The notes beneath the pieces were generated by a model. The model was not told where the DNA came from and did no database searches. It worked only from the letters and a program-made list of their open reading frames with translations. From the NCBI GenBank assembly GCA_009379915.1, contig WHSV01000020.1:1-45923 (forward strand): 45,923 nt of DNA, in the 5' to 3' direction. This stretch comes from Actinomycetota bacterium. Its GTDB lineage: Bacteria; Actinomycetota; CADDZG01; WHSQ01. Both the position numbers and the translations under genes were made by a program. This document shows, in pieces, positions 16,082 to 39,413 of the stretch. Within the stretch, counting starts at the first letter, position 1; every line of letters starts with the position of its first letter.

Positions 16082-17205
16082 GCGAGACCTCCCTGAGGGA
16101 GCTCGCGCAACTCTTCCTCAAGCTTGGAAGCATCGCGTTCGGTGGCCCCGCGGCGCACATCGCGATGATGCAGGACGAGGTCGTGGACCGACGCAGGTGG
16201 TTCAGCCGACAGCGCTTTCTCGATCTGGTGGGGGCGACCAACCTGATTCCCGGCCCCAACTCGACCGAGCTTGCGATCCACATTGGGTACGAGCGAGCCG
16301 GCTGGGCCGGGCTGCTCGCGGCCGGTTCGAGCTTCATCCTGCCGGCGATGTTCATCGTCATGGCCTTCGCCTGGGCTTACGTCGAGTACGGCTCGACGCC
16401 GGCGGGCCAAGCGCTTCTCTACGGAGTGCAGCCGGTGGTGATTGCGATCGTGGCGCACGCTCTGGCGAAACTCGCGCCCACCGCGGCTAAGGACTGGCTG
16501 CTGCGCGGGATCGTCGTCGCATCGATCGCACTCTTTCTCGCAGGCGTGAACGAGATTCTGATCCTGTTCGGCTTGGGGGTTCTCGTCATGTTGGTGAGAA
16601 GGGTCGCGTCGCTCGAGCCCGGTGGGATCCAGATACTCTCGCCTCTGCCCCTCATTCTGTTGGCCCGGGATGCGAGCGCTCCCGTAACTCTGGACCGGCT
16701 CTTCTTCACCTTTCTCAAGATCGGGGCGGTCCTCTACGGCGGCGGTTACGTGATCCTCGCGTTCCTGCAGAACGACTTCGTAGGGCGTCTCGGTTGGCTC
16801 ACGCAACAGCAGCTCATCGACGCCGTCTCCGTCGGGCAAGTAACTCCGGGGCCCGTCTTCACTACGGCGACGTTCATCGGCTACGTGCTGAAGGGTGTGC
16901 CGGGGGCCTTGCTCGCGACGCTCGCCATCTTCCTTCCATCCTTCATCTTCGTCGCGGTCTCGCACCGCTACATCGAACGGATGCGCGCGTCGAAGTGGTT
17001 CTCTGGCTTGCTGGATGGGGTCAATGCGGCCGCCGTCGGCCTGATGGCGGGCGTGACCATTGAGCTCGCGCGCGAGGCTATCGTCGACATCACGACCATT
17101 GTCATAGCAGTGGTGGCCTTGAGCTTGCTCGTCGTTGCGAGGGTCAATTCGGCGTGGCTCATCCTGGCGGGGGGAGCGATCGGACTCCTCGTCGACATGA
17201 TGTAG
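16078..17205 (+). CDS. chrA: chromate transporter ChrA (two-domain)
   Basis: CHR-family inner-membrane transporter of 375 residues with two homologous halves. The first begins LFLKLGSIAFGGPAAHIAMM, with LIPGPNSTELAIHIG. The second begins FFTFLKIGAVLYGGGYVILA, with VGQVTPGPVFTTATFIGY. The paired FGGP/YGGG and PGP motifs define the long-chain ChrA group, which exports chromate in characterised members. The GTG at 16078 overlaps the yjbQ stop by 4 bp; the GGAGGG before it is unusually close. Other oxyanions are possible substrates. A repeat begins at its stop codon. Confidence 0.9.
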   Translation: MSETSLRELAQLFLKLGSIAFGGPAAHIAMMQDEVVDRRRWFSRQRFLDLVGATNLIPGPNSTELAIHIGYERAGWAGLLAAGSSFILPAMFIVMAFAWAYVEYGSTPAGQALLYGVQPVVIAIVAHALAKLAPTAAKDWLLRGIVVASIALFLAGVNEILILFGLGVLVMLVRRVASLEPGGIQILSPLPLILLARDASAPVTLDRLFFTFLKIGAVLYGGGYVILAFLQNDFVGRLGWLTQQQLIDAVSVGQVTPGPVFTTATFIGYVLKGVPGALLATLAIFLPSFIFVAVSHRYIERMRASKWFSGLLDGVNAAAVGLMAGVTIELAREAIVDITTIVIAVVALSLLVVARVNSAWLILAGGAIGLLVDMM

Positions 17206-17303
17206 CGGGGTCGGCTCGGCGAGACCGCAGAGGCACAAGCGGGGTCGGCTCGGCGAGACCGCAGAGGTATGGGCAGGATTCCAACAAGGCTGGTCGAGGA
17301 GTC
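17204..17303. repeat. GC-rich repeat family: tandem pair plus extended arm
   Basis: Two tandem copies with a 34-bp period, each containing GCGGGGTCGGCTCGGCGAGA then CCGCAGAGG. After the second copy the sequence continues (GGATTCCAACAAGGCTGGTC, then GAGGAG). That continuation recurs almost unchanged at 18731-18783 on the far side of the DUF222 gene. The same core (CTCGGC, 2 nt, GACCGCAG) occurs three times at 31981-32058. Confidence 0.8.
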
Positions 17304-17435
17304 TCCCTATAACCCTGCTCGGCCATTTTCTCGCGGGGAGACTCATTACGGGCTACCTCCCTGCAGCTCGATATGAGGATCTTCTAGCTCGTGTCGCTAA
17401 GGCTCCGGTTCCAGACCGCGGCGCCGATCATGTCG

Positions 17436-18575
17436 TCACGGCGGTGCCCGCTTCGCGCCGGGAGGCGGCGGCGTGAGTTTGCCCGCCTTTCGGTCCCGTT
17501 CGGTCTTTGCCTGGTGGCATGTCCAGCAGCGAGGCCTCAGGTTGCCGGTCGACGCGGGACCGTACGCAGTATGGGGTTCGACGTGGTCGTTTTCGTTCCC
17601 GAAGCGGTTGCCGCAGTCCACACAACTAATCCCGTCGAAATCGGGGGGTGGACCGAGCTGCAGGGCGATTCTGACCTCGACCGGGGTGTTGCGGGTCCAG
17701 CGGCGAAAGTGGCGGAGGTCTACTCCGTCGTAGAACACGCCGGAAAGAAACGCATCGGCGGCGGTCTTTCTGACGACTTGGGGGAGACCGGGCCGACCCC
17801 GGGTATCTTGCAAACCTCGCCGTCTTTGACGTCGGTCCAGCCCCGCTGGGTGACCTCGTGGCTGACCACGACGACGAGTTCGGGGCGAGGGGGGCGTCTT
17901 TTGCCTCTCCGGGACCCATTCAGCAACCCGGCATAGGCGTCGGCGAGATGGCGCTCCAAAGGGTTCTTGGGTGCCGTCCCTTTTCGCTTTGCGGTACAGA
18001 CGCCCCGCCTCGGCTTCGGCCCGGTTCACGATCGCGGTCCCGACATGGGGCTCGAATGCGAGGTGGATGTGGACCAAGCCGAGCTCGTCGTTGTAGGTGC
18101 GGGCGCTGCGGGCCGCGTGCTGGCGAGCGAACAGGTCCCCACCCTGCTCGGATTCGAGCTTGATCTTGCGGGCTTTGTCTTTGAGCACGTGAAACGCCTC
18201 GGTCTCGACGACCTCCAACAACTCCGGCGCCGACCCGGGACGGGCTTGTTCGGCCCGGACGATCTCGGTTGCTTGATCGAGTGAGATGGCGCCGCCCGCG
18301 AAGGCGTCACGAACATCGTCGGCATCTTTAAGGGCCTTGCCGGTCTCGACAGTCTGTTTGGCCTTGCCGATGGAGGTCCCCGTCACGCGCGCGATCTCGG
18401 ACGTATCGTCGATCTTGCGAGCGAGGACGGCCTTTCCGAACGCCGCGAGCTTCTCGGCCCGGGCATATTCGGCGAGCAGCGCGCGGGCCGCTTCCGCAGA
18501 CATGAGCCCGGGTTCGAGATTCGCGTTGGCCTTTTCGAGCAACGTCACCGCGTCATGAAGGATGTTTGATTCCAT
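17436..18575 (-). pseudogene. DUF222 (13E12-like) HNH endonuclease, double frameshift
   Basis: The N-terminal two thirds, from MESNILHDAVTLL at 18575, show the DUF222 region (TGTSIGKAKQTVETGKAL, GAISLDQATEIV). The C-terminus has an HNH nuclease motif: DGISCVDCGNRF, ENDHVEPH, then LRPRCWTCHQAK. Between about 17960 and 17782 the true protein lies in another frame (ERHLADAYAGLL, ELVVVVSHEVTQRGW, KIPGVGPVS). The two shifts compensate: an extra base in the AAA/GGG run at 17958-17963 and a missing base in the G run at 17780-17784. A single open frame survives with about 60 nonsense residues. Members are multicopy and mobile-like in actinobacteria. Repeats flank the gene. Confidence 0.8.
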
Positions 18576-18730
18576 GCCCTGATCATGGCAAGGAGGTGTG
18601 ACAACTTTCCTTCTCGCGGAGCCCGTCCGAGAAATTGCTCGGACTTTTTCTGTTGACGAACCACTTGCCTGCAAACTAGACGCGAGCTGCAACGACTTAA
18701 GCTCTTAACGAGGAGACGACCGTCACTGCA

Positions 18731-18783
18731 CTCGGCGCGACCGCAGAGGCATAAGGAGGATTCAACACGGCCGGTCGAGGAGA
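18731..18783. repeat. right-hand copy of the repeat flanking DUF222
   Basis: CTCGGCGCGACCGCAGAGG, then AGGAGGATTCAACACGGCCG and GTCGAGGAG. It aligns with 17249-17303 over about 54 bp with only a handful of differences and in the same orientation, so the two copies bracket the DUF222 gene as direct repeats. Confidence 0.78.
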
Positions 18784-18789
18784 CGTCTC

Positions 18790-19485
18790 GTGAGGTCCTT
18801 GCAACACCCCACAGAGCCCCCGCCGGAGGGGCCCTCGTGGAGCGCGGGGAAAGACATCACGTTCGGCGGGCTGAGCGACAGGGGCACGGGATACATGGCC
18901 TACTCCGAACGAGTCGGCCCGAGCGTTCTGCTTCTGCACGACGCCTACGGTCTGCTGCCGTCCGTGCGCTCGCTGACGGACCGGTTCGTGGCTGCGGGGT
19001 TCACGGCACTCGCCGTGGATCTCTACGAGGGCAGGACCGCGGAGAACGCCGACGCCGCCGGTGCACTGGCGGCCGGGCTCGATATGGCAGACACGATGAA
19101 ACGTCTCTCGGCCGCGGCCGAGCATCTCTCTGGAAACTGGCACCCCCGGCTCGGGGTGGTCGGTTTCTCGACCGGGGCGTCTCTCGCCACGATGCTGGCG
19201 CGCGAGGTCGAGGTCGATTCGACCGTCGTCTACTACGGGGGAGGAGCCGGACTGGAGCGCTCTTGGGACGCGCGGCCGCTGCTCGGGCACTTCGCGCGGC
19301 GAGACGACTTCGGGCCCGCGTCTTCGGCGCTCAGGGCCATCGCTTCGCTGGCGGAGGCCGAGGCATTTTCCTACGACGCGGCACACGGGTTCGCCAACGA
19401 GGATCTCAGCGATCGCTATCAGCAGTCGGCAGCGGAGCTGGCCCTCGAGCGCACGCTCGAGGAGCTTCACTATCAGCTCTCCTGA
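18790..19485 (+). CDS. dienelactone hydrolase-like alpha/beta hydrolase
   Basis: 231 residues in the DLH fold. VLLLHDAYGLLPSVRSLTDR followed by AAGFTALAVDLYEG is the typical oxyanion and entry region. The nucleophile elbow is GVVGFSTGAS, with Ser where classical dienelactone hydrolase has Cys. The likely acid is Asp in ARRDDFGP and the base His in DAAHGFAN. Cytoplasmic esterase/hydrolase of unknown substrate. The GTG start is preceded by GAGGAG. The gene begins right after the repeat at 18731-18783 and overlaps the convergent sulfotransferase gene by 13 bp. Confidence 0.85.
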   Translation: MRSLQHPTEPPPEGPSWSAGKDITFGGLSDRGTGYMAYSERVGPSVLLLHDAYGLLPSVRSLTDRFVAAGFTALAVDLYEGRTAENADAAGALAAGLDMADTMKRLSAAAEHLSGNWHPRLGVVGFSTGASLATMLAREVEVDSTVVYYGGGAGLERSWDARPLLGHFARRDDFGPASSALRAIASLAEAEAFSYDAAHGFANEDLSDRYQQSAAELALERTLEELHYQLS

Positions 19486-20387
19486 GCGCCGCCTGCGGTT
19501 CGTTTCGCCAACCGACCGACAGGCAGGCCGGCCCGCCCCGCGAGCGAGGCCAATCGTGCTCCCAGACCGGGGGCCGGGAAGAGGCGCTCGTAGCCGAGCT
19601 CGGAGAGGGTGTCTCCCGCAATGGCTTCGAACACCTCGACCTGGGACTTTGGCATCTGCTCGTCCCACGAGCGGGTCTTCGTGATGGGTCTGGTGACGTT
19701 CGGGTTGTAGAGACGCGCCCGGTCGAGGACCTCGGAGCGCGCCTGCTCCGAGTAGTCGAGCATCGCGGGATCGAAGTCCAGGTCGAGGAAGGCACACAGA
19801 GATTCAATCTCCTCACGGGGGCTCTCCAGGAGGCGTTCGTAGCGCAATTCCACGTAGCGCTCGGAACCCAGCGGGCGGCCCTGCTTCATGCCGAGCGAGA
19901 CCCGCTCCCTCCAGAGCGCGGCCGCTTTCGCAACGGTGTTGGGGCCGAACGGGACGTCGGCGTAGCTCAGCGCAACCTCCCTGCCGTCGCGCACCAGATG
20001 CACGAACCTCGCGTCGGGCCAGAGCCGGGCCAGCAATGGGAGATGCTCGATGTAGCGCGGGGTCTTGTCGCCGTAGCGTTTCTTGTTGCGGCTCAGGGCG
20101 AAGGCCATATAGGCCGCCTCGATCGCCTCGGGATAGGGCACGGTCGACATCCCCGCGAGCCGGGCGCGCACGTCCTCGATCGGCGTGTCCCAGGAGATCC
20201 AGCGCCGGTGGGATCCAAGGCGGGACAGGAAGTCATCCACACGCACCTCGTCCGAGCTGTAAAGCTCGACGACGAAGCGCGACTCGGGCGGAACGGCTAC
20301 CTCGGGATGCGCGTTGAGCATCATGCGCAGCAGAGTTGTGCCCGAGCGAGCCGATCCGACGATGAAGAACATCCCGGACGTACTCAA
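19473..20387 (-). CDS. sulfotransferase family protein
   Basis: PAPS-dependent sulfotransferase fold, 304 residues. The 5'-phosphosulfate loop is FIVGSARSGTTLLRMML near the N-terminus, and the 3'-phosphate motif is VHLVRDGREVALSYAD in mid-protein. RYGDKTPRYIEHLP is typical of the bacterial Sulfotransfer_3 group. The TTG at 20387 has GAGGA five bases upstream; an ATG at 20372 would remove part of the lead-in to the phosphosulfate loop. It lies beside the glycan export genes, and a second sulfotransferase follows 6 kb on, so a sulfated surface glycan is the likely product. The acceptor is unknown. Confidence 0.87.
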   Translation of the reverse strand: MSTSGMFFIVGSARSGTTLLRMMLNAHPEVAVPPESRFVVELYSSDEVRVDDFLSRLGSHRRWISWDTPIEDVRARLAGMSTVPYPEAIEAAYMAFALSRNKKRYGDKTPRYIEHLPLLARLWPDARFVHLVRDGREVALSYADVPFGPNTVAKAAALWRERVSLGMKQGRPLGSERYVELRYERLLESPREEIESLCAFLDLDFDPAMLDYSEQARSEVLDRARLYNPNVTRPITKTRSWDEQMPKSQVEVFEAIAGDTLSELGYERLFPAPGLGARLASLAGRAGLPVGRLAKRTAGGAQES

Positions 20388-20526
20388 CAGGTCCTCATTG
20401 TTAGGGCGGTCGGTGAGTTTGTCAGTGTAGTGGGTCGGGATTCAGCGACTTCCCGGGCTGGTTGCTGATGCCAACCTCGGTCCTTTGCGAGTTCCAGAGT
20501 CCGCCATTGCCCTCCTATGGGGAAGG

Positions 20527-20532
20527 TAGAAT
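20527..20532 (+). promoter_or_regulatory. candidate -10 (TAGAAT), leaderless
   Basis: TAGAAT ends 9 nt before the ATG at 20542, and no Shine-Dalgarno sequence intervenes. It would drive the run of glycan-assembly genes from 20.5 to 27 kb. A weak TTGCCC lies upstream, but its spacing is too short for a standard -35. Confidence 0.45.
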
Positions 20533-20541
20533 CCCGCATCC

Positions 20542-22599
20542 ATGAGCTCAACCACCGAAACTAACCGCGCCCCGGAGGGGCCAACCGAGCTACCCGAGGC
20601 GAACACTCCGATTCAGCGGATTCTTGGTTCGCCGGCTGCGTTTATCGCCACAGCGGTGATCCTGCTGGCCCTATTCGGAGGAACGTTTCTCGCCAACCCG
20701 GACCGCGTCGCGCCTACCAGGGACCCCGCGTACTACACCTGGCGGACCGAGCTCATTACCACCGAGACACCTCAGACGCTTCTCGACATAAAAGGTCCCT
20801 ACCAGTACTTCGGTTCCGGATATCGAGTGACGGAGCCAATATCGGGAGCTCTGTTGCGCGCGATTCCGGGAGTGGCCGAGCTACACATCACGGTTGTCCT
20901 CATGGTCTTGCTCCCGGTGCTCACCTCCTTGCTTCTCGCGAGCTTCGCCTACAGGCATCGACGGGACCCGTTGTTGTGGCACGCGGTTGCCTTCTTTTCT
21001 GCGAGTCTCTATCTCACGCCGCCGTTCGTCGGTTACCTCGACAACGTGCTCTGTTTGTTTTTCCTGGTCGCATCGTTGAGTTTCCTGACGGAGGCGCGCA
21101 CCTCTTGGCCCGCGCGCATCGCGTTCGCGGGCTTCCTGCTTGCTGCGGGTCTCACCCACCCGACGACTCTCGTGTTCTTTGGCTTATCACTCGGGTTGAT
21201 GTCGCTCGCCAAGTTGGTGTTCCGCAGCTTCGACCTACGAGCGGTATTGCGCGAGGACTTGCCGATGCTACTGAGTGCTCTGACCGCCGCAATCGTTACG
21301 ATCGCCATCTGGACCGTGGGCATCTGGGGAGAGTCGGCGCCGCTGACGGATGCTGCGCTTGCACCTCCTTACGACGACGATTTCTTCCTGACCCGCATGG
21401 GGGCGTGGATCGAGGCGATGAGACCGTGGCTCAACGGGCCGCTGCTCGTCGTGGGTGTGGTTGGGATCCTGGCGGCGGGCAAACGCTGGGTCGACGAGGA
21501 CCTGGCGCGCGTCTCGATCCTGTGGCTTGCCCCGCTTGCCGGTCTGGTCGGGTTCATCGGGGGCCTCACCTATCCCTACTACCGGTTCTTCAACACGACC
21601 GTGGCCTGGCTGCTGCTCGTCGGCCTGGGCGCGTACTTCCTGATTCGCTTCTTGATGTCCAAGTCGATGGTTGCGGCCGGCGCCGGTCTCGTGCTTCTCG
21701 GTCTCCTCGTCGCGACTAACTTCACCACCGGCTTCGAGCTCACCGGTTGGAACGACGCGCAGCGTGGCTGGATCAACGCTCAGGCACGCACCGATCTCGA
21801 GACACTCGAGGCGCGCCTCGCCGGGGTCGACGAAGATACCCCGGTCATCTTCGCGATCGATCAAGAGGATCGAAGCCAGCAGATCTGGGGCTACACCAAG
21901 CTGTCGGGCAACATCTCTCGTTACGGACTGCCCGGAGGAATGATCGACCAGGGATACATGTATCTGGGCTCGCTCGAAAACCTGTTACAGGACTCACCAA
22001 CGAATCCCGAGGGTGAGGCCATCGAGCAGGGCTCGTGCGACCCCGACGAGGCCGAGGAAGCGCTCTCCGGCGATGTCTACACGGCCCTTTCGCGGGAAAC
22101 GTTGTGCGACGTGCAGAACAACGCGACCGGCGCGCCCATCATCGTCGTCGCCCGGGCCTTCAACGCAACCGGGTTCAACGCGGAGATCGCCTCGGGCGCG
22201 CTCGAGGGAGCCCCGGACATAGCCGGCGTGGGAGAGGTTTGGGCGGTCGCCGAAGGCGAGGTCACAAACGTCCTTGGTGGCGAGCCACCCGCCGCCGAGC
22301 CACCGGACGACGATGCATCGGCCCTGCACCTGTTGCGGGTCGTGATCGGATTTCTCCTGCTGCTCCTTCCAGGGGCGCTGGCGTTTCGCTTCTTTCTCCC
22401 CGACGGTCATCCGGTCGCCGAATCACTGGGCATGGCGCCGGCGCTCAGCCTTCTTGCGTTGTCGCTCGTGGGAATGGTGCTGGTCGCCGTGATCCGGGCA
22501 CCGTTCGACTCACCCGTGGCCTGGACGACCCTGGCGATCACGACGCTGCTTTGCGCAGGACTCCTTGTGCTTGGCCGGCGGCGCCCACACTTGGCATGA
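20542..22599 (+). CDS. polytopic membrane protein, GT-C-like
   Basis: 685 residues with roughly 12-13 membrane segments: one near residue 35, many between 115 and 410, and two or three at the C-terminus after a hydrophilic extracellular domain (about 415-590). After the first helix comes a long loop with DPAYYTWRTELITTE, resembling the acidic first loop of GT-C glycosyltransferases that use lipid-phosphate sugars. The family is not recognised with certainty. The extracellular domain (PVIFAIDQEDRSQQIWGYTK) has no clear homology I can name. First of a co-directional glycan gene set; a role as polymerase or glycosyltransferase is inference. Confidence 0.7.
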   Translation: MSSTTETNRAPEGPTELPEANTPIQRILGSPAAFIATAVILLALFGGTFLANPDRVAPTRDPAYYTWRTELITTETPQTLLDIKGPYQYFGSGYRVTEPISGALLRAIPGVAELHITVVLMVLLPVLTSLLLASFAYRHRRDPLLWHAVAFFSASLYLTPPFVGYLDNVLCLFFLVASLSFLTEARTSWPARIAFAGFLLAAGLTHPTTLVFFGLSLGLMSLAKLVFRSFDLRAVLREDLPMLLSALTAAIVTIAIWTVGIWGESAPLTDAALAPPYDDDFFLTRMGAWIEAMRPWLNGPLLVVGVVGILAAGKRWVDEDLARVSILWLAPLAGLVGFIGGLTYPYYRFFNTTVAWLLLVGLGAYFLIRFLMSKSMVAAGAGLVLLGLLVATNFTTGFELTGWNDAQRGWINAQARTDLETLEARLAGVDEDTPVIFAIDQEDRSQQIWGYTKLSGNISRYGLPGGMIDQGYMYLGSLENLLQDSPTNPEGEAIEQGSCDPDEAEEALSGDVYTALSRETLCDVQNNATGAPIIVVARAFNATGFNAEIASGALEGAPDIAGVGEVWAVAEGEVTNVLGGEPPAAEPPDDDASALHLLRVVIGFLLLLLPGALAFRFFLPDGHPVAESLGMAPALSLLALSLVGMVLVAVIRAPFDSPVAWTTLAITTLLCAGLLVLGRRRPHLA

Positions 22600-22647
22600 A
22601 GGTCGCGCGAGGCCAGTTGGAGGCGCCGCGCAAGACACGTCGAACCA

Positions 22648-22685
22648 TCGACATTCAGCCACCGTTTCGGTGGGCTGTTTGTCGA
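22648..22685. repeat. strong interrupted hairpin
   Basis: TCGACA-TT-CAGCC-ACCG, loop TTT, CGGT-G-GGCTG-TT-TGTCGA. Fifteen base pairs form, with one TT/TT internal loop and one bulged G. GTCGAACC occurs at 22639 and again at 22681 as a direct repeat around the left side. It lies between the GT-C-like gene and the flippase gene. No T run follows, so it is not a classical terminator. Confidence 0.65.
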
Positions 22686-22821
22686 ACCTTCGCCGGGATC
22701 GGCGGCGAGCTGGCCACGGTGACGGCAAATTAGCCCCGAGGAGGGTTTTCGGGAGCAGGGGCTGACCGAAGCTCAGCGCGAAGACGTTGCCACCGTTGCG
22801 CGCGGAGGCGCGATTCAGATC

Positions 22822-24330: not shown

Positions 24331-24355
24331 TCCATTGGATGGAGGCCAACGTAGG

Positions 24356-26107
24356 ATGCCCGCGGTGAAGACCGATCGCGGGTTTCAGATGATCGATCGG
24401 CTGCCGGCTGGTGACCCAGGAGACAGATCCCGTTTGTTGTGGCTGGGGGCCGGCGCGTCCCTGGCCTTCGGGTTGGTCGCATGGGGAACCGGCACCCTGG
24501 CCGGAGGCGTCCTCGCGTGGTGGGCGCTCATGTTCACCGCCGTCCTGGTTGCTTTCGTTCTGCCCCTGCCTCTCGCGCTCGTCTCTCCTCTCTTTCTCGG
24601 ACTCTTCGGGTGGCTGGTGGACATGCTGCCGACGATCATCCTGGTCGGTTGGTCCGCCGTGGTGCTGAGGTGGGCCCTGATGCTGTGGCGCGAGCGAAGG
24701 TGGCCCCGCTGTGGCCGCTGGATGTGGCTGCTCCTGGGACTGGTGGCGTGGACCATGCTGGGCGTCGCGGTGGTGCCCGCGGCCGACCTTCGCCACTTTC
24801 TGTTGCTGGTGGCGATCCAGGGCCTGATCAGCGGCCTGATGCTCGCGGTCGTAGACACGCTCAGATCCCTGGACGATCGCGTTCAGGTGGTTTCGGCGCT
24901 GACGGTGTTTGTCGTGGTTCTGTCCGTTGGTGTGCTCTTCGAATGGGTGGGACTTCCGGTCGAAGACATGCAGAACCGAGAGGTGAGCACCCGCGTGGAG
25001 GAGGCCTACGGACTCGACGTCTTCCCGAATGCAATTGGCATGACCAACTACGTGCGAGCTAAGAATGCAGGAGCCGCGGAGTTGCGCAGGAGAGTCGATC
25101 GATTGGCCGAGCGCACGCCGGGGCTGCCCGCCGCCGCGGTCTACGCCCCGCCATTCACTGCGTTCGACACCAGCATCGTCGTGAGATTCGAAGGATCGGC
25201 GCGCGCGTTCGAGGATGTGCTGCGGGGCCTCGACATCGAACTTCTCTACGACAACGCGGGCCTGGCCCCCATGGTGACGGTGCCCCGGCTGCGGTCCTTT
25301 CCACGCAACGCTCTTACCTATGCAGGTGTGTGCGTGGCGCTTTTTCCGCTCGCTTTCTTCCTTGTCTGGACGGGGGACAGCCGGAGGCGCCTTCTGGGAT
25401 GGGCGGGGGTCGTCTCGTGCCTCTTCGGAGCCGGATTCTCCCTGGCCCGTGGAGCGTGGATCGCGATCTTGATAGCGATCCTCTACCTGCTGGTGGACGG
25501 ACGCCTATCGTGGCGCCGCAAGGGTCAGATGCTCGGCGTCTTTGTGGCCGCCGCCGTAATGGTCACCGCCTTCTTCGTGGCGCGCTACGGGGTCGATCCC
25601 GCGACCGGTAGAGCGGGGGCTCCGGGAAGCATCGGCACGCGTACGACCGTCTATGAGGAGACCGTCGGCGTCCTTCGGGGCAAGCATTTCCTTCTCGGCT
25701 ACGGAACGACGACATCGCGTGCGGAGGAGGGAAGCAGGGAGCGCGGCCGGTACGTTCCCCGTGCGGGCACTCACTCCACCTACCTCAACTACCTGTTCCG
25801 CGCGGGGCTCATCGGCGGGCTCGGCATCGTCGCGTTGTACGCGATCTCGTGGCTTCATGCTCGCGCGGGTGCCTACGCCATGGAGGGACGCGAGCGACTC
25901 TTCCGCACCCTTCTCGCCGGATCCATATTCAGCCTGGCCGCTCACGCCGCCATCCTCAGTCTCTACGTCGAACCGACATACACGCTGACGGTGTCGTTGC
26001 TGCTTGCACTCGGTGTGGCGGGTGCGACCGAGCTGCCCACATCGGTTCTTCCGTGGCGCAAGGCGCGCGCCAAGGCGGAGTCGCGGGTCTCGGCCGGCAC
26101 CTCGTAG
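24356..26107 (+). CDS. O-antigen ligase/polymerase-like membrane protein
   Basis: 583 residues from the ATG at 24356, with GGAGG about 11 bases upstream. About 12 membrane segments. The C-terminal half has the Wzy/WaaL hallmark: a periplasmic loop with GSIGTRTTVYEETV ... LLGYGTTTS ... GTHSTYLNYLFRAGLIGG, in which the H-S/N-x-Y-L-x-x-L-x-x-x-G-L-like pattern is conserved. Unusually, a soluble segment of about 100 residues (from VEDMQNREVSTRVEEAYG to VTVPRLRSF) is inserted before the second set of helices. Probably polymerises or attaches the glycan outside the membrane. Confidence 0.82.
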   Translation: MPAVKTDRGFQMIDRLPAGDPGDRSRLLWLGAGASLAFGLVAWGTGTLAGGVLAWWALMFTAVLVAFVLPLPLALVSPLFLGLFGWLVDMLPTIILVGWSAVVLRWALMLWRERRWPRCGRWMWLLLGLVAWTMLGVAVVPAADLRHFLLLVAIQGLISGLMLAVVDTLRSLDDRVQVVSALTVFVVVLSVGVLFEWVGLPVEDMQNREVSTRVEEAYGLDVFPNAIGMTNYVRAKNAGAAELRRRVDRLAERTPGLPAAAVYAPPFTAFDTSIVVRFEGSARAFEDVLRGLDIELLYDNAGLAPMVTVPRLRSFPRNALTYAGVCVALFPLAFFLVWTGDSRRRLLGWAGVVSCLFGAGFSLARGAWIAILIAILYLLVDGRLSWRRKGQMLGVFVAAAVMVTAFFVARYGVDPATGRAGAPGSIGTRTTVYEETVGVLRGKHFLLGYGTTTSRAEEGSRERGRYVPRAGTHSTYLNYLFRAGLIGGLGIVALYAISWLHARAGAYAMEGRERLFRTLLAGSIFSLAAHAAILSLYVEPTYTLTVSLLLALGVAGATELPTSVLPWRKARAKAESRVSAGTS

Positions 26108-26115
26108 GAGCGCGC

Positions 26116-27063
26116 GTGGCCACCCGGCGAGAGATTCAAAAGAGCCTGAGGACTACGTTCGAACCCGGCCCCCGTTGGTGGGCCAAGCGAGGTCTGCTGC
26201 GGGCGAGACAGGCATTGCACGTTCCGACATTGCTCGGTGGCGCGCGCTTGCACAAACCCGTGTTCATCGTCGGGGCGCCCCGGTCCGGAACGTCGCTGCT
26301 TTTCGCGATTCTGCGTTCCTCCGGCCGTCTCGCTCACTGGCCGGGGGAGGCGCACGAAGTGTGGGAGGCCTACTATCATCCGGCGCTGCGCGGCTGGGAT
26401 TCGAACGTGCTCGAAGCAAGCGATGTGACCCCCGAGTCCGCCGCGTACATCCGACGGCAGTTCCTTCTGATCGCGGGCTCGAGACGTCACCTCATCGACA
26501 AGACGCCGCGCAACTCGTTGCGGTTCGGATTTCTCGAGGCCGTGTTTCCCGACGCGCGCTACGTCTACCTGCAACGGGACGGCCGCGAGAACGTGAACTC
26601 GTTGATAAACGCGTGGCGAACCCCTCGATACAGAACCTACAAGCTCGAGGAACCTCACTCGATTCCGGGAGTGGACCCCTCGTGGTGGAAGTTCGTCCTC
26701 TACCCGGGGTGGCGCGACGACACCGCGGCGCCGCTGGAGGTCGTGTGCGCCAAGCAATGGGCGATCTGCAACGAGCACGCCCTTGCGGCAGCCAAGACCA
26801 TCCCTTCCGAGCGGTGGACGGAGGTCCGCTACGAGGACCTCGTCGACGATCCCGAACCCGTGATCGGACGGGTGATGGAGGCACTCGAGCTGCCCTACGA
26901 GGAGGGCGTCAGGCGGCGGGCTCGGGCGACCACGACCACTCCGATCAACGTGGTCACCCCGCCCGAACGAGGGAAATGGCGCAAGGAGAACCCGGCGGCC
27001 ATCGAGTCGATCCTGCCGCTGGTCGAGCCGACCATGGAGGCGCTGGGGTATCCCCTGGAGTAG
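26116..27063 (+). CDS. sulfotransferase family protein (second)
   Basis: 315 residues from a GTG with AGGAG five bases upstream. The phosphosulfate loop is FIVGAPRSGTSLLFAIL; the 3'-phosphate region is YVYLQRDGRENVNSLINAW; DKTPRNSLRFGFLEAVFP matches the bacterial Sulfotransfer_3 pattern. WTEVRYEDLVDDPEPVIGRV is the usual C-terminal helix lead-in. It differs clearly from the sulfotransferase at 19.5-20.4 kb, so the two may act at different positions or on different acceptors. Last gene of the co-directional glycan run, 8 bp after the ligase-like gene. Confidence 0.87.
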   Translation: MATRREIQKSLRTTFEPGPRWWAKRGLLRARQALHVPTLLGGARLHKPVFIVGAPRSGTSLLFAILRSSGRLAHWPGEAHEVWEAYYHPALRGWDSNVLEASDVTPESAAYIRRQFLLIAGSRRHLIDKTPRNSLRFGFLEAVFPDARYVYLQRDGRENVNSLINAWRTPRYRTYKLEEPHSIPGVDPSWWKFVLYPGWRDDTAAPLEVVCAKQWAICNEHALAAAKTIPSERWTEVRYEDLVDDPEPVIGRVMEALELPYEEGVRRRARATTTTPINVVTPPERGKWRKENPAAIESILPLVEPTMEALGYPLE

Positions 27064-27557
27064 ATGAGACCTGGACCAGACTAGTGGCAGACTGGGTTCT
27101 GGCTGAAGTCACGACAAGACCGGCATCCACGGGGTCGGGCTGGTGTTGTGGCCGACTTTCGCGGTCCGCTCAGGCCCTGTCGCGGACTTTCGACCACGAA
27201 CGACGCTCAGAGCCTGTCGCACAAACCTGAGATACGTCCGCTTTTGTCCGAAACGCGCGCGATGTTCCAGGCCTGTGACCTGCGCGTTTGCAAACTGCTC
27301 GACTTTTCGCAACAGGTTCCTCAGCGTCGCTAATGGTCGAAACTGTGCCCCGGGCTCGTTTGTTCGCGCGCGCCATGGTCGGATAGCGACCGAATCGGCA
27401 AAGAGTTCGGCCGGAACCCAGCCACAGCGGCAAGAAAAAACCGCATCATCCCAACTCGGCCCCGTTGGCGCCGCCTTGGTTTCTCTCCTTGGTTCGGCTC
27501 GAACTAGGGCCGTATGGCGCTGTCAGCGAGTCCGCGACGGCCGTCCGGGACTCGGAA
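27064..27557. other. intergenic region without a convincing gene
   Basis: 494 bp. It contains copy B of the dispersed repeat (27335-27405), three GACTTTCG-like words between 27150 and 27310, and two CCTGTCGC words near 27175 and 27215. Short frames on both strands lack recognisable motifs and ribosome binding sites. It may be the remains of a decayed gene. Confidence 0.55.
27335..27405 (+). repeat. dispersed intergenic repeat, copy B
   Basis: GGTCGAAACT at 27335-27344 and a block around CCATGGTCGGATAGCGACCG and AATCGGCAAAGAG at 27371-27405 match copy A at 14147-14235. Immediately upstream, GCGTCGCTAATGGTCG is the reverse complement of CGACCATTAGCGACGC in the loop of the 14.1 kb hairpin. Confidence 0.65.
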
Positions 27558-28802
27558 TCAGAGGTAACCCAGATCTTTGAGATGCTTCTCGACGGTGGCC
27601 TCTTCCTCTTGGCTCATCCCCGAGGAGGCCACCGTCGAAGAGGCCACCTCTTCGATGTACTTCTCGAGCTCCCGCGCGACCTCGGGGTGACGTGAGTAGA
27701 GGTTGTGCTTCTCGTCCGGCAGGCCCGCCCCCCCAGGGCCCGTGCCCCCGTTGAGTCTGAAGAGCGCCGGCCTGCCGCCACCCGGCACCAGGAGCTTCCA
27801 GTCCGGCCTCCGGGCCCCCACGATGCGCTTCCCCTCGAGCTTCACCCCGACCGCTTCCATGTAAGCCGGCTCCTCCGGCAGAACGCCACCCTCCATCAGA
27901 GGGCGAACGCTGCGCCCGTCAACCGACTCGGGGACCGGAATCCCCGCGAGGTCGGCGAGGGTCGGCAGGAGGTCGACGTGTCTCACCTGATCGGTGACCA
28001 CCGACGGGCCGATGCCCGGACCGCTGAGGATCAGCGGCACCTTCACCAGGTGCTCGTGCAGGGCAAAGCCGTGCCCCACGGCCTGGGCCGAGAGCTTGCG
28101 ATCGAGGTAGGGGAACCAGCTCTTGGGCTTGAGGACCTTTCGGGCTTTCCTGCTGATTCTGTTCAACAGCACCTCGATTTGGCCATCGGGGTACTCCTCT
28201 CCGTGATCGCCGGACAGCGCCACGATGGTGTTGCCGGGCAGGGCGTCGAGAACCGGCCGGAGGCCTTCGTCGCTCGCGGCGACCACTGCCTCGTAGCCGG
28301 CCCGGTCCCACTGCTTCGTGTAATTCGGAGGCGGGCGGAACGGCCGGTGCACCTCCCAGATATGGAGCAGCATGAGCCACGGCTCCGAGTACTCCGACAT
28401 GCGTCGGAGCACCTCGTCTCTCCAACCGAAGAAGGGGGCCCGGTAGCCCTCGCGGTGGTGCACCTCGTCGAAGCCGCGCAGCACGCCCGTCTCGGGGAGG
28501 AGAGGGCCGGTCACCTCGGCGTAGGTTCGGTATCCGGCCGATCCGAACGCCTCCGCAATCGTCGTGACTTCGGGTGACAGCCGGTAGCCCTGCAGACCAC
28601 GTACGCCGTGCTTCGGCGGGTAGCAGCCGGTGAGGATCGACGAGAACGACGGGGTCGTGGTGGTCGCGGTGCAAACGGCCTCCTGGAAGTCAACTCCCCG
28701 CGCGGCATAGGAGTCAAAGGTGGGAGTGGGGATGCGATCATCGAGGATCGCATCCGCCCGCAGCGAGTCGACGAACAACATGAAAACGTTAGGAGTGGTC
28801 AC
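27558..28802 (-). CDS. sulfatase-fold (AP-superfamily) hydrolase or transferase
   Basis: 414 residues from a GTG with GGGGAG upstream. Metal ligand Asp is in MLFVDSLRAD; the nucleophile region is TATTTTPSFSSILTG, with Thr and no C/S-x-P-x-R formylglycine signature; then SGDHGEEYPDG, and finally VGHGFALHEHLVKVPLILSG with the C-terminal ligand His residues in the canonical order. The absent sulfatase signature argues for phosphodiesterase or phosphotransferase rather than sulfatase chemistry. No signal peptide is seen. The tail EEEATVEKHLKDLGYL matches the ends of the two AP proteins at 32.7-36 kb. Next to the UDP-galactopyranose mutase gene. Confidence 0.82.
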   Translation of the reverse strand: MTTPNVFMLFVDSLRADAILDDRIPTPTFDSYAARGVDFQEAVCTATTTTPSFSSILTGCYPPKHGVRGLQGYRLSPEVTTIAEAFGSAGYRTYAEVTGPLLPETGVLRGFDEVHHREGYRAPFFGWRDEVLRRMSEYSEPWLMLLHIWEVHRPFRPPPNYTKQWDRAGYEAVVAASDEGLRPVLDALPGNTIVALSGDHGEEYPDGQIEVLLNRISRKARKVLKPKSWFPYLDRKLSAQAVGHGFALHEHLVKVPLILSGPGIGPSVVTDQVRHVDLLPTLADLAGIPVPESVDGRSVRPLMEGGVLPEEPAYMEAVGVKLEGKRIVGARRPDWKLLVPGGGRPALFRLNGGTGPGGAGLPDEKHNLYSRHPEVARELEKYIEEVASSTVASSGMSQEEEATVEKHLKDLGYL

Positions 28803-28841
28803 CGTGACTCCCCTGTCCTGTCTTCTGAGCCGGCGCGCATC

Positions 28842-30200
28842 CTACGCATCGTTGCTGGGCCAGATTTCCTCGGGGGTTTTCTCGACGATCAAACGAGCAG
28901 TGTCGATGCCCATCTTCACCGCATGGTCCATGTTGCCGATCTCGTAACGCCAGGAGCCGAACCGGCCGCGCGAGTAGATGTCGTGGTGCATCAACCACGG
29001 TTGGATGACCTCGAGGGCTGCGTCGCGCTTGAGGGTCGGCACGGGATAGGCGTAAGCGGCATCCTCGATGTGCATCGACGCGACCTCGGGTAACCCCTCG
29101 ATGACACCGGCGCGACGCAGAGACTCCTCGACGTGTTCGGCGAGGCCTTCCTTCGACACGGGCTTGTAGCGCGAGTAAGCGATCTCGGTCATGTAGGAGC
29201 AGTAGCGTCCCGTGTCGGCGTCCGGCACGTTTGCCGACGAGTACTTGGCGAAGTTCGTCGCCCGATAAAACGGGATGTCCTCGGCGGGAAAGTACATCCA
29301 GGATTTGTCGTCCTTGAGCGGCGACTCGTAGCCGATTCCGACGACGAGAACTCCGTTGTGCTCGAGGTCCTCGGCCGCGCGCCGCACGCTGTCCGGGCAG
29401 TGCACCAGCTTCGAGACGAGGACGTCGATCGGCATGGTCGACACGAGCTTGTCGTAGGTCTCCTCGGTTCCGTCCGCCATCGCGACGGTCTTACGCTCGG
29501 GGTCGACGGAGGCGATCTCCCTGTTGTACTGGATCTGATCGCTGAGCTTGACTGCGAGCCTCCGATAGATCTCGGCCGTCCCTCCTACTGCCGGGAAGGT
29601 GAACATGTTGTTCGGCCCCCACGCGGCATCGTCCTCTTGGAAGGTGAGGCTCCTCAGCGCTCGTTTGTAGTCGATGACGCTGACGCGTTCTGCGATCCAG
29701 TTGGAGGCCATGCGCTCTGGCGGGGTGGCCCACACCTTGAAGTTGTATGGACGCATGAAGTGGTGGGTGATGCCGCCGCCGAACGTCGCCTCCATCCACA
29801 GCGCGAAATCCTGGCTGGAGTCGCCCCCCGGCGCCTCGATGAGCCCCAGAATGCACTCGTAAGCGGGCTCGGGTGGGAGGTGGCGCAGGTTGTTCTGGAA
29901 CGGGTAGGGGACCCAGTTGTTCCCGAAGCGGATGTACGACGACCTCTCGTGTTGGTAGACCTCGTCTCCCATGGTCTCTTCGAGCAGCGTGTCGAACTCG
30001 CCGTAGTGACTGAAGACGACATGCCCCCCGAAGTCCCAGGTGAATCCCTGAGGGTCGATCACCGAGCCGGCGTGTCCCCCGGCGACATCCTGCTGTTCGG
30101 CCAGCAGCCAGTTGACGTGACCGAGACGCCTGAGCTCGCGGGCGCACCCAAGACCACAGGGCCCTGCTCCAATGATCACAACGCGCGGGGTATCGGTCAT
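28842..30200 (-). CDS. glf: UDP-galactopyranose mutase-like flavoprotein, eukaryotic type
   Basis: 452 residues. An N-terminal FAD-binding Rossmann motif (VVIIGAGPCGLGCARELRRL) is followed by FTWDFGGHVVFSHYGEFD, HFMRPYNFKVWATPPERM and PAEDIPFYRATNFAKYSSAN. These closely follow the conserved blocks of the eukaryotic-type mutases (Aspergillus, Leishmania) rather than the E. coli/Mycobacterium Glf type. The enzyme would convert UDP-galactopyranose to UDP-galactofuranose in the cytoplasm. Divergent from wecG with a promoter region of 47 bp between them. A related NAD(P)/FAD amine-oxidase-like desaturase is the alternative, but the match is specific. Confidence 0.78.
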   Translation of the reverse strand: MTDTPRVVIIGAGPCGLGCARELRRLGHVNWLLAEQQDVAGGHAGSVIDPQGFTWDFGGHVVFSHYGEFDTLLEETMGDEVYQHERSSYIRFGNNWVPYPFQNNLRHLPPEPAYECILGLIEAPGGDSSQDFALWMEATFGGGITHHFMRPYNFKVWATPPERMASNWIAERVSVIDYKRALRSLTFQEDDAAWGPNNMFTFPAVGGTAEIYRRLAVKLSDQIQYNREIASVDPERKTVAMADGTEETYDKLVSTMPIDVLVSKLVHCPDSVRRAAEDLEHNGVLVVGIGYESPLKDDKSWMYFPAEDIPFYRATNFAKYSSANVPDADTGRYCSYMTEIAYSRYKPVSKEGLAEHVEESLRRAGVIEGLPEVASMHIEDAAYAYPVPTLKRDAALEVIQPWLMHHDIYSRGRFGSWRYEIGNMDHAVKMGIDTARLIVEKTPEEIWPSNDA

Positions 30201-30233
30201 CGTTCTCTTTTCTCTCCGATCTATGGGGACACC

Positions 30234-30239
30234 TATAAT
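30234..30239 (+). promoter_or_regulatory. consensus -10 (TATAAT), leaderless
   Basis: A perfect TATAAT ends 8 nt before the GTG at 30248, with no ribosome binding site, in the divergent gap between the mutase and wecG-like genes. It predicts a leaderless transcript for the five-gene run to 34.3 kb. The -35 is weak. Confidence 0.6.
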
Positions 30240-30247
30240 GCTGCCCC

Positions 30248-31015
30248 GTGAGGAATCAACTCTCCACGTCCGAGGTCCTCGGCGTTCCGATCGCTCGACT
30301 GGATCCCGGGTCGGCCCTTGACGAGACGCAAAGGTTATACGAAGATGCCGCCCCGGCCATGCTGACGTATGTCAACGCGCATACGTTGAACTTGGCGGCC
30401 TCCGATTCGTCCTACGCGGAGTTATTGAGGAGCGCCGAACTCGTCCTCAACGACGGGAAGGGTGTTCTGCTCGCCGGGCTGATTCTGGGCCGCCGCTTTC
30501 CGGCGGACCTCAACGGAAACTTCTTCACACCGCTGCTGCTCGACCATGCGGCCGCGTCCGGATGGTCCATCTACATTCTCGGTGCAAGGCCCGGAGTCGC
30601 GGAGCGGGTCGCCGACGTGTTGAAGGCCAAGCATCCCGGTTTGACCATCGCCGGAACGATGCACGGTCACTTCTCGGCCGACGACGAGGACGACGTCGTC
30701 ACCCGGATCAGGGCTGCGAACCCCGGCCTGCTGCTCGTGGGAATGGGCAATCCTCTGCAGGAGCGATTCCTCGCCCGCCGGCTGAAGGAGTCGGGCGCGC
30801 GCGTCGGTCTCGGTGTCGGTGCCTACCTCGACTTTCAGGTCGGCGAGGCAACGCGTGCTCCTGCGTGGATGAACCGCATCGGGATCGAGTGGCTTCATCG
30901 ACTGACCCAGGAGCCGCGCCGGATGTGGCGCCGCTACCTGCTCGGCAACCCGCTGTTCGTCTGGCGCGTGCTGAGGACTCGCCTTCGCCGCGGTATACGC
31001 TCGAAGACCTCATGA
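30248..31015 (+). CDS. WecG/TagA/CpsF-family glycosyltransferase
   Basis: GT26 family, 255 residues. Signature blocks are LTYVNAHTLNLAASD, VLNDGKGVLLAGLILG (the D-G-x-G core), NGNFFTPLLLDHA, SIYILGARPGVAERVADVLK, then PGLLLVGMGNPLQERFLA and VGAYLDFQVGEATRAPAWM. Members add a ManNAc-type sugar (teichoic acid TagA, enterobacterial WecG) or glucose to a polyprenyl-linked primer at the inner membrane. This is the second or a later step after the sugar transferase at 39.5 kb. GTG start, apparently leaderless. It overlaps the next gene by 4 bp (ATGA). Confidence 0.9.
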   Translation: MRNQLSTSEVLGVPIARLDPGSALDETQRLYEDAAPAMLTYVNAHTLNLAASDSSYAELLRSAELVLNDGKGVLLAGLILGRRFPADLNGNFFTPLLLDHAAASGWSIYILGARPGVAERVADVLKAKHPGLTIAGTMHGHFSADDEDDVVTRIRAANPGLLLVGMGNPLQERFLARRLKESGARVGLGVGAYLDFQVGEATRAPAWMNRIGIEWLHRLTQEPRRMWRRYLLGNPLFVWRVLRTRLRRGIRSKTS

Positions 31016-31962
31016 ACGACAGACCCTCGAACTCCTCTTTCATCATCGCGACGCGCAACCGTTCCGACGAGCTCGTCGTCACCGTCAGAAGCCTCGTCGA
31101 GCAGACCGTGCTCCCGCGCGAGCTCTGCATCGTCGACTCGAGCGAGGAGACCCCGGCGCGCGTGGAGATCGAGGAGCTGTGCGACAAGGTCGGCCTCCCG
31201 CTCGATTACCACCACCCCGCGCCGAAGGGACTCACCGTTCAGCGCAACGTCGGTATCGACCGGGTCGGCGGCGACATCCTGTTCTTCATCGACGATGACG
31301 TCTATCTGGCCCCCGACTGCCACGAGGAGATCCTCAGGGAGTACGACCGATGGGGGCCGGAGCTCGGGGGAGTTCGCGCGACGAACCCGGACCCGGCTCG
31401 TCCCCCGATGATCTCGATTCTGTGGCGCAAGCTGTTCGGAATCGGCGGTTGGTGGCCCGAGGCTAGCGGCAGGATGCGGCCTGGATTCTGGGTCGAGGGC
31501 ATCTCGGACTCCGCGGGCGTCCGCAAGGTCGAGTACATGACCGGCTGGTTCATGTCGTTCAAGCGCGAGGTGCTCGAACACGAACGCTTCGACGAAGCCC
31601 TTTCGGGATACGCGCACAAAGAGGACGTCGACATGACGTACCGGGTATCGCGCCGCTACACGTTGCTCCAGACGCCGAGAGCCAAGTGCGAGCACTTTCA
31701 GACCATCACATCGAGACTCTCGTCGCACCAACTGATGAGAATGAACCTCGCCAACCAGTTCTATCTCCACCGCAAGAACATGCCCCAGACGTTCAAGTAC
31801 CGGTTCGCCCTGTGGTGGGGCCTGCTGGGGTTGTTCGTTCTCAACGTGGGGCGGGCGACTTTCAAGAGCGATCCGGGGCTCGTCACGGGCATGATCGTGG
31901 GCGCGTGGGAGCAGGGCCGCGGCCGTGGCCTGGTCGACCCGGCGCTCGAGGAAGGCTCGTAG
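31012..31962 (+). CDS. GT2 glycosyltransferase
   Basis: 316 residues, GT-A fold. SSFIIATRNRSDELVVTVRS opens the nucleotide-binding region, the metal-binding DxD equivalent is FFIDDDVYLAPD, and the acceptor-side acidic motif is GYAHKEDVDMTYRVSRRY, close to the ED-x-D pattern of rhamnosyl- and galactofuranosyl-type GT2 enzymes. A C-terminal hydrophobic stretch (ALWWGLLGLFVLNVG) suggests membrane association. ATG start overlapping the WecG-like stop. With a mutase making UDP-galactofuranose nearby, a galactofuranosyltransferase role is possible but not shown. Confidence 0.87.
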   Translation: MNDRPSNSSFIIATRNRSDELVVTVRSLVEQTVLPRELCIVDSSEETPARVEIEELCDKVGLPLDYHHPAPKGLTVQRNVGIDRVGGDILFFIDDDVYLAPDCHEEILREYDRWGPELGGVRATNPDPARPPMISILWRKLFGIGGWWPEASGRMRPGFWVEGISDSAGVRKVEYMTGWFMSFKREVLEHERFDEALSGYAHKEDVDMTYRVSRRYTLLQTPRAKCEHFQTITSRLSSHQLMRMNLANQFYLHRKNMPQTFKYRFALWWGLLGLFVLNVGRATFKSDPGLVTGMIVGAWEQGRGRGLVDPALEEGS

Positions 31963-32709
31963 GTGGGCGAGCGCGGGGCGGGCTCGGCCGGACCGCAGGG
32001 CCGCGGGGCGGGCTCGGCCGGACCGCAGGGCGACGGGGCGGGCTCGGCCGGACCGCAGGGCGACGGCGGCATCACCGCGCACGGAGCCAAGCCGCGCGAC
32101 TACTGGTGGACCGTGCTTGCGGTGGACCCAGTCGCGCTCCCCGTCGTGCGCCTGCTTGCGCGGAAAGGGTGGCTGACGCCCGACCAGGTCTCGTTTCTCT
32201 CGTTGGTGATCGGATTGGCGGTCGGACCGGTGTTCGCGACCGCGACGCGCGCCGGGTTGATCGCAGGCGCGGTGCTGTTCTACCTGTCGTTCTTGTTCGA
32301 CTGCGTCGACGGGAAGCTGGCGCGCGCCACCGGAATATCGAGTCCCAAGGGGGTGTTGCTCGACCGAATCGGAGACGGAGCGCGCCGGGCGAGCGCCGGC
32401 ATCGGGCTGACCTACTACCTGTGGCGGACGGGAGACAACGGTGACTGGTTGTGGGCCGCGGTGTTCGCCATCCTCGCCGCGTACTTCATGGAGGTCTCGG
32501 GTGGTGCGGAGCGCGGGGAGCCGGCGGGGTCAATCGCACAAGCTCTTGCCCGGCGACGGCTGCTGCCGAATCCGGGGATGCCGGACGTGGCCGCGATCGT
32601 GTACGTGATCGGACCGCTCACGCCCTGGGTCGTTCCCGCACTGTGGATAGGTATCGTCTTGGTCGTGATCGGAATTGCTCGGGTGCTGCTCAAAGCGATA
32701 ACCGCATGA
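31963..32709 (+). CDS. CDP-alcohol phosphatidyltransferase with repeat-encoded N-terminus
   Basis: 248 residues from the GTG directly after the preceding stop. The catalytic signature D-G-x2-A-R-x8-G-x3-D-x3-D is intact: DCVDGKLARATGISSPK followed by GVLLDRIGD. About six membrane helices. It would transfer a phospho-alcohol group between a CDP-alcohol and a second alcohol. The first 35 residues are three copies of GAGSAGPQG plus linkers, encoded by the tandem repeat at 31974-32070. No other start codon occurs before the conserved DYWWTVLAVDP, so the repeats must be translated. Stop overlaps the next gene by 4 bp. Confidence 0.87.
   Translation: MGERGAGSAGPQGRGAGSAGPQGDGAGSAGPQGDGGITAHGAKPRDYWWTVLAVDPVALPVVRLLARKGWLTPDQVSFLSLVIGLAVGPVFATATRAGLIAGAVLFYLSFLFDCVDGKLARATGISSPKGVLLDRIGDGARRASAGIGLTYYLWRTGDNGDWLWAAVFAILAAYFMEVSGGAERGEPAGSIAQALARRRLLPNPGMPDVAAIVYVIGPLTPWVVPALWIGIVLVVIGIARVLLKAITA
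31974..32070. repeat. 30-bp tandem repeat, three copies, inside a coding sequence
   Basis: Units begin at 31981, 32011 and 32041, each GGCTCGGCCGGACCGCAGGG plus 10 nt, nearly identical. The period is a multiple of three, so copy number can change without breaking the frame. The core matches the repeats at 17204-17268 and 18731 (CTCGGC, 2 nt, GACCGCAG). Confidence 0.88.
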
Positions 32710-39215: not shown

Positions 39216-39413
39216 GGGCGGGCCACAGGGGCGGTCGCCCCGGCGAGGCACATGGCGGGCCAGTTGGGCGGGTCACTGAGACGGGCCACACGGGGAGCCC
39301 ACTTGGGCAGGCCACAGGGGGCCACACGGACGGCCCACACGAACCGGCCCATAGGGGACCGGCCACACGGACGGGCCACAGGGGCGGCACACGGACGGGC
39401 CAGACGGACGGGC
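39216..39413. repeat. degenerate GC-rich minisatellite
   Basis: About a dozen imperfect copies of a CGGGCCACACGGA-like unit of 12-20 bp, with clear examples at 39217, 39281 and 39361-39411. Unit length and sequence vary too much for a recent expansion. No conserved protein is encoded in any frame. Confidence 0.75.

Follow-up and report, generated by a model that had tools for sequence, protein, structure and literature searches.

Short palindromic repeats dispersed between and within genes of an uncultured, GC-rich actinobacterium

Rickettsia palindromic elements (RPEs; Ogata et al., 2000, 2002) are, according to a review, repeats of around 150 bp that fuse in frame with genes (PMC10969869). 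Two of them, RPE-4 and RPE-6, have been classed with the shorter REPs (PMC3733652). Intragenic REPs of the GTAG and CGTC superfamilies hit DnaE2 and repair genes, where some provide TAG stop codons, and CGTC REPs occur without a dedicated transposase (PMC3733652). The PARCEL elements are palindromic coding sequences found in tandem within open reading frames, where they encode amphipathic domains; most of their hosts are membrane proteins without an assigned function (PMC2996958).

The repeat family analyzed here resembles the RPEs in being palindromic, in its dispersal both within and between genes, in its in-frame presence in unrelated housekeeping genes and in having no known mobilizer (PMC10969869). 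It enters genes that are uninterrupted in relatives (DnaE2, TrpC and an M24 peptidase) as an in-frame palindrome, it is free of stop codons, and the peptide it encodes is biased to one frame (11/15 internal copies). The likeness is drawn from behavior; our unit is 33 bp long, forms direct tandem arrays and is found in GC-rich actinobacterial genomes. It also has the properties of a REP, namely a stem-loop of 20–40 bp at high copy number, as singletons and groups, with some copies intragenic; the double insertion in a DnaE2 gene described below (L023) parallels the REPs seen in DnaE2 genes of other bacteria. However, the hairpin bears no GTAG or CGTC tag, the consensus ending in C-GCGG and CCGC-AGRAACAA; the genome has no RAYT/Y1 gene; and the units form direct tandem arrays, whose period within genes is a multiple of three. 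Since both the tags and a RAYT gene are missing, we do not place the family in the GTAG/CGTC superfamilies. Like PARCEL it consists of palindromic coding repeats in tandem within open reading frames, but it supplies short G/A/S/P-rich peptides to ordinary enzymes. The mycobacterial MIRUs are short actinobacterial tandem repeats at gene junctions that overlap stop and start codons and vary in copy number; they are longer than 33 bp and essentially intergenic. By description, the present unit differs in lying also within conserved domains. The fixed-length target-site duplication of a MITE derived from a DDE transposon was not found among 67 arrays. On this analysis the family works like RPEs and intragenic REPs and is best called a variant of the protein-coding palindromic repeats. 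The first-pass annotation of this DNA had considered an element of this kind unusual; given these counterparts, it is less unprecedented than was claimed.

The window, meaning the whole 45,923-nucleotide stretch analyzed, corresponds to C142, one of the 158 contigs in a 3.39-Mb assembly (genome G000). A pattern search of this whole genome with up to two mismatches gave 89 matches to GGNNGGCTCGGCNNGACCGCAG and 3 to the reversed control, so the copies in the window are not a product of chance. In total there are around 80 copies at about 50 sites, as singletons or tandem arrays of two to four units. A genome from another genus of the same family (G012) gave 74 matches against 1 for the control, and numbers were at background in nearly all of the other genomes. 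A longer pattern matched 81 times in G000 (reversed control 0); across 16 genomes of the family it also matched 65 times in G012, three times in G015 and twice in G011, with at most two weak matches elsewhere. In an exact pattern scan of 84,980 species, a set from which the window's own genome may be missing, the only matches were in G011, G012, G015 and one further genome, all of them actinobacterial MAGs. The match in this further genome of the GTDB scan, JAHWKL (L129), is a lone copy and was treated as chance. Among the 84,980 species, the family is close to absent outside G000 and one other genus, where it is abundant. A phage origin was rejected, the exact pattern being present in 0 of 2.9 million viral contigs. 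In a tree of DnaE2 and TrpC, with weak support for the deeper branches, G012 groups with G011 (96% support) and apart from G000. The two bursts of the repeat, in G000 and G012, thus seem to belong to different branches, a distribution that requires transfer or loss. Three arrays (L022, L029 and L067) end in assembly N gaps, so real copy numbers are probably above our count. The ftsW/murG junction carries repeat-like sequence in both G000 (L029) and G012 (reverse strand of L112, near 2661); the G012 sequence is degenerate, and the two possibly represent one common ancestral copy.

The consensus unit from 48 arrays, C-GCGGGGNNGGCTCGGCNNGACCGCAG-RAACAA, is 33 bp or exactly 11 codons long, is stop-free in all six frames and consists of a 24-nt hairpin with a short A-rich tail. 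As a single strand it folds as ((((..(((......)))..)))), with energies of -12.7 to -18.3 kcal/mol as RNA. These energies are unexceptional when compared with shuffled sequences (z about -0.6 to -2.7), and the support for the hairpin comes instead from covariation. The NN dinucleotides of the stem vary together as TC/GA, CC/GG and CG/CG, with G-U intermediates, and are paired in 94.6% of cases compared to 70.1% after shuffling, a level reached in 0 of 10,000 shuffles. Strong conservation is also seen in the GG/GA internal loop and in the GCTCGG loop. Within most arrays the linkers are the same, but from array to array they differ, as expected if units duplicate locally in tandem. Two congeneric species carry the repeat at the same site, the start of nuoF, with two units in G011 (L119) and three in G015 (L120). 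The linker identity and this difference in copy number both indicate the proneness to slippage that had been suggested for the window copies. In L119 the left and right flanks have an exact 8-bp stretch in common.

The gene model and the insertions inside genes were called by a home-built codon score, analysis of open reading frames and reading of alignments, and the hosts were assigned by Pfam. Copies lie within DnaE2 (at two sites), the indole-glycerol phosphate synthase TrpC (IGPS), the M24 peptidase, the ATP synthase epsilon subunit, PdxH, a PIG-V-type mannosyltransferase, a maleylpyruvate-isomerase-like protein, a VanW protein, a DUF4388 protein and others, with one antisense copy in a MiaB-type radical SAM protein. 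Further copies provide tails to CarB, LeuA, hydantoinase B, FxsA, a ferredoxin-type protein read as NuoI and an ABC permease, and N-terminal extensions to NuoD and the transferase in the window. Many copies stand at gene ends in apparent operons (nuoC/nuoD, ftsW/murG and leuA/leuC). Alignment with orthologues identifies empty sites for several of these insertions. DnaE2 has gained 11 residues, GLDGPRSGV[RGAGSAGPQEQ]SEDNEVG compared with GLDGPRSGV-GADNEVG; TrpC has gained 12, ALEGP-QTRGAGSAGPQT-GVAVIAEIKR compared with ALRGP-GIAIIAEIKR; and the M24 peptidase has 11 additional residues ahead of GFFHALGHGVGLE. The frame is kept in each, and these precise empty sites in orthologous genes demonstrate the dispersal expected of the mobile element that the first-pass annotation had envisaged. 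One DnaE2-type polymerase (L023, on contig C32 of G000) carries two independent insertions, one of them a four-copy array. The DnaE2, TrpC and transferase sites are occupied in G000 and empty in G012; the insertion histories of the two element-rich genera therefore differ. The copy in PdxH lies at a loop where human PNPO likewise has additional residues.

The preferred frame of the unit within genes is R-GAGSAGPQ-EQ. The GAGSAGPQ frame is used by 11/15 internal copies (p = 2e-6 against an expectation of 1/6) and the sense orientation by 14/15 (p = 5e-4); these p-values are only indicative, as we selected the internal set manually, starting from a simple codon model. Other frames are read in the CarB tail (+0), in PdxH and LeuA (+1) and in the MiaB-type protein (antisense). 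In L087 an arginine-rich +1 frame falls in a basic Lys/Arg linker, and this exception and that in PdxH fit their context. The period of coding arrays, 30 or 33 bp, is a multiple of three in 10/10 cases, compared with 0/5 of the clear intergenic arrays, where it is 32 or 34 bp (p = 3e-4, or 0.011 when doubtful arrays are counted as intergenic). We infer that selection on the reading frame produces this pattern, as would be expected of it.

All six copies of the core CTCGGC-NN-GACCGCAGRG first reported in the window, two at 17.2 kb, one at 18.7 kb and three at 32 kb, are present without mismatch on the + strand, at 17215, 17249, 18731, 31983, 32013 and 32043. The GCGGGG lead-in attributed to the arrays precedes both 17.2-kb cores (from 17205 and 17239) and two of those at 32 kb (from 31973 and 32003). 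In the third 32-kb copy it reads ACGGGG, and the 18.7-kb copy is without it. The coding array consists of units at 31973..31998 (GCGGGGCGGGCTCGGCCGGACCGCAG, translating to GAGSAGPQ), 32003..32028 and 32033..32058, the last with A as its first base, all on the + strand. Its 30-bp period, correctly described as in frame, is a local variant of the 33-bp unit found across the family. The array lies in an open reading frame for a CDP-alcohol phosphatidyltransferase (PF01066; 31963..32709, + strand), whose N-terminus reads VGER-GAGSAGPQGR-GAGSAGPQGD-GAGSAGPQGD. A Shine-Dalgarno-like AGGAAGG (31949..31955, + strand) ends 7 nt before the GTG at 31963. Within this reading frame it is the sole ATG, GTG or TTG ahead of the conserved GAKxRDYW(W/F)TV segment; the next possible GTG comes only after that segment. 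Judged from these signals, the array is almost certainly translated, as an N-terminal addition of around 30 residues relative to the orthologues; a start at an unusual codon downstream of the array, such as ATC, is possible. The orthologues do not have these extra residues and show heterogeneous sequence ahead of GAKxRDYW. The reported extension of the N-terminus with the frame unbroken is borne out by this comparison, in which no unrelated N-termini of equal length and composition were seen.

The 17.2-kb array is intergenic, with two units of the same sequence (GCGGGGTCGGCTCGGCGAGACCGCAG, the TC..GA hairpin variant) at 17205..17230 and 17239..17264 on the + strand; their period of 34 bp is not a multiple of three. 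In unit 1 the first G (17205) doubles as the last base of a TAG stop codon (17203-17205), which ends a gene for a chromate transporter (PF02417); the 32-kb array begins 10 nt past the TAG at 31960-31962. The earlier observation that arrays start at or after a TAG stop is thus accurate for these two, but is not a general feature of the family.

We propose, with a probability of roughly 0.8, that these dispersed, tiny palindromic repeats are selfish DNA tolerated in proteins, as are intragenic REPs and the Rickettsia elements. The 33-bp unit has been copied to about 50 sites, as the genome-wide copies and empty orthologous sites show, and the stem covariation suggests that a trans-acting activity recognizes the hairpin. 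An inserted copy would often grow to two to four tandem units via slippage or unequal recombination; such local expansion is indicated by array-specific linkers and by the two and three copies at one orthologous site. Since the unit is 11 codons long and stop-free in all frames, insertions within genes keep the frame. Purifying selection would mostly retain copies at termini or variable loops that are read as RGAGSAGPQEQ, probably a small flexible peptide. In the window, the 32-kb array would extend the transferase by about 30 residues at its N-terminus, and the 17.2-kb array is intergenic. We further infer that the family is mobile in the present day.

The alternative to which we give most weight, though we regard it as improbable, is that the unit is a functional RNA element, such as a transcript-stabilizing hairpin, an attenuator or a protein-binding site, spread and held by regulatory selection, with the copies inside genes as by-products. 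A stem that covaries and tolerates G-U pairs, the sense orientation of 14/15 internal copies and the many copies at gene ends in apparent operons are all consistent with this. Nevertheless, the host genes are unrelated, the compared sites are not common to both element-rich genomes, most genomes of the family have no copies, and copies deep within coding sequence have no obvious regulatory logic; there are also no matches to Rfam in the window at gathering score. It is far less probable still that slippage of GC-rich sequence produced local, VNTR-like arrays without any dispersal. Identical linkers within arrays and the two versus three nuoF copies in G011 and G015 do point to slippage, but it does not explain why the same 26-bp core and covarying stem recur across about 50 loci that are unrelated, with a single copy at many of these, nor does it account for the empty orthologous sites.

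The G/A/S/P-rich composition and the position of insertions in loops and tails might suggest convergent protein linkers, with GAGSAGPQ-like peptides arising from GC-rich codons. We consider this extremely unlikely, as copies also occur between genes and in other frames, and the covarying pairs alter amino acids (A/G to V/R), which implies that what is conserved, across frames, is the DNA and not the protein. Equally unlikely is an assembly or binning artefact of the metagenome-assembled genome, for which the three arrays that run into N gaps could be cited; the same repeats are found at other loci in other genomes of the family, and the insertions within conserved genes are in frame.

With selfish, tolerated repeats as the preferred reading, we considered candidates for a mobilizer. 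RAYT/Y1 was rejected, as PF01797 gave 0 matches in G000 (95% complete) and in the genomes of the family searched, where controls matched. DUF222/HNH genes are spread over the relatives irrespective of repeat number, and neither reverse transcriptase nor IS110 tracks repeat number in searches run without G011, G012 and G015. Comparison of the flanks of 67 arrays gave no consistent fixed-length target-site duplication, with matches of at least 8 bp in only 4; the mean flank match was 4.03 compared to 3.67 after shuffling, an excess carried by about four loci. The matches are striking at L070, L110, L071 and L119 but are not general. A bolder and rather doubtful proposal is a minimal mobile element of 33 bp and 11 codons that moves by a mechanism other than IS200/RAYT, possibly on or through RNA, and serves the lineage as a continual source of flexible in-frame linkers and tails. 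The near-exclusive sense bias in genes, the G-U-tolerant covariation of the stem and the lack of target-site duplications lead us to speculate on a role for RNA.

With these repeats, the range of protein-coding palindromic elements, of which those of Rickettsia are the best known, widens to include uncultured, GC-rich Actinomycetota. The unit is so short that hairpin and codon constraints are cleanly separable, and dozens of natural insertions of one 11-residue peptide into conserved enzymes form a data set on insertion-tolerant loops and termini. In gene calls and alignments for this lineage, repeat peptides will appear as lineage-specific insertions.

The 18.7-kb copy (18731..18748, + strand) is decayed, with only the core, and lies upstream of an open reading frame starting at 18790. 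It is part of a 52-53 bp direct repeat that includes the core, with a left copy at 17249..17301 (+ strand) and a right copy at 18731-18782 that are 85% identical. The two copies flank an open reading frame for an HNH endonuclease (17436..18692, - strand), the middle of which looks frame-shifted; they may have been left behind by an insertion or duplication at this locus. Homing by this HNH gene, which we considered and rejected, would account only for the local 52-bp direct repeat; the reading frame gives no sign of mobilizing the repeat family. Elsewhere in the window, positions 39216-39413 hold a GC-rich degenerate tandem repeat identified by a tandem repeat finder, with a period of 13, around 15 copies and an overlapping period of 28; by eye, it bears no relation to the 33-bp family.
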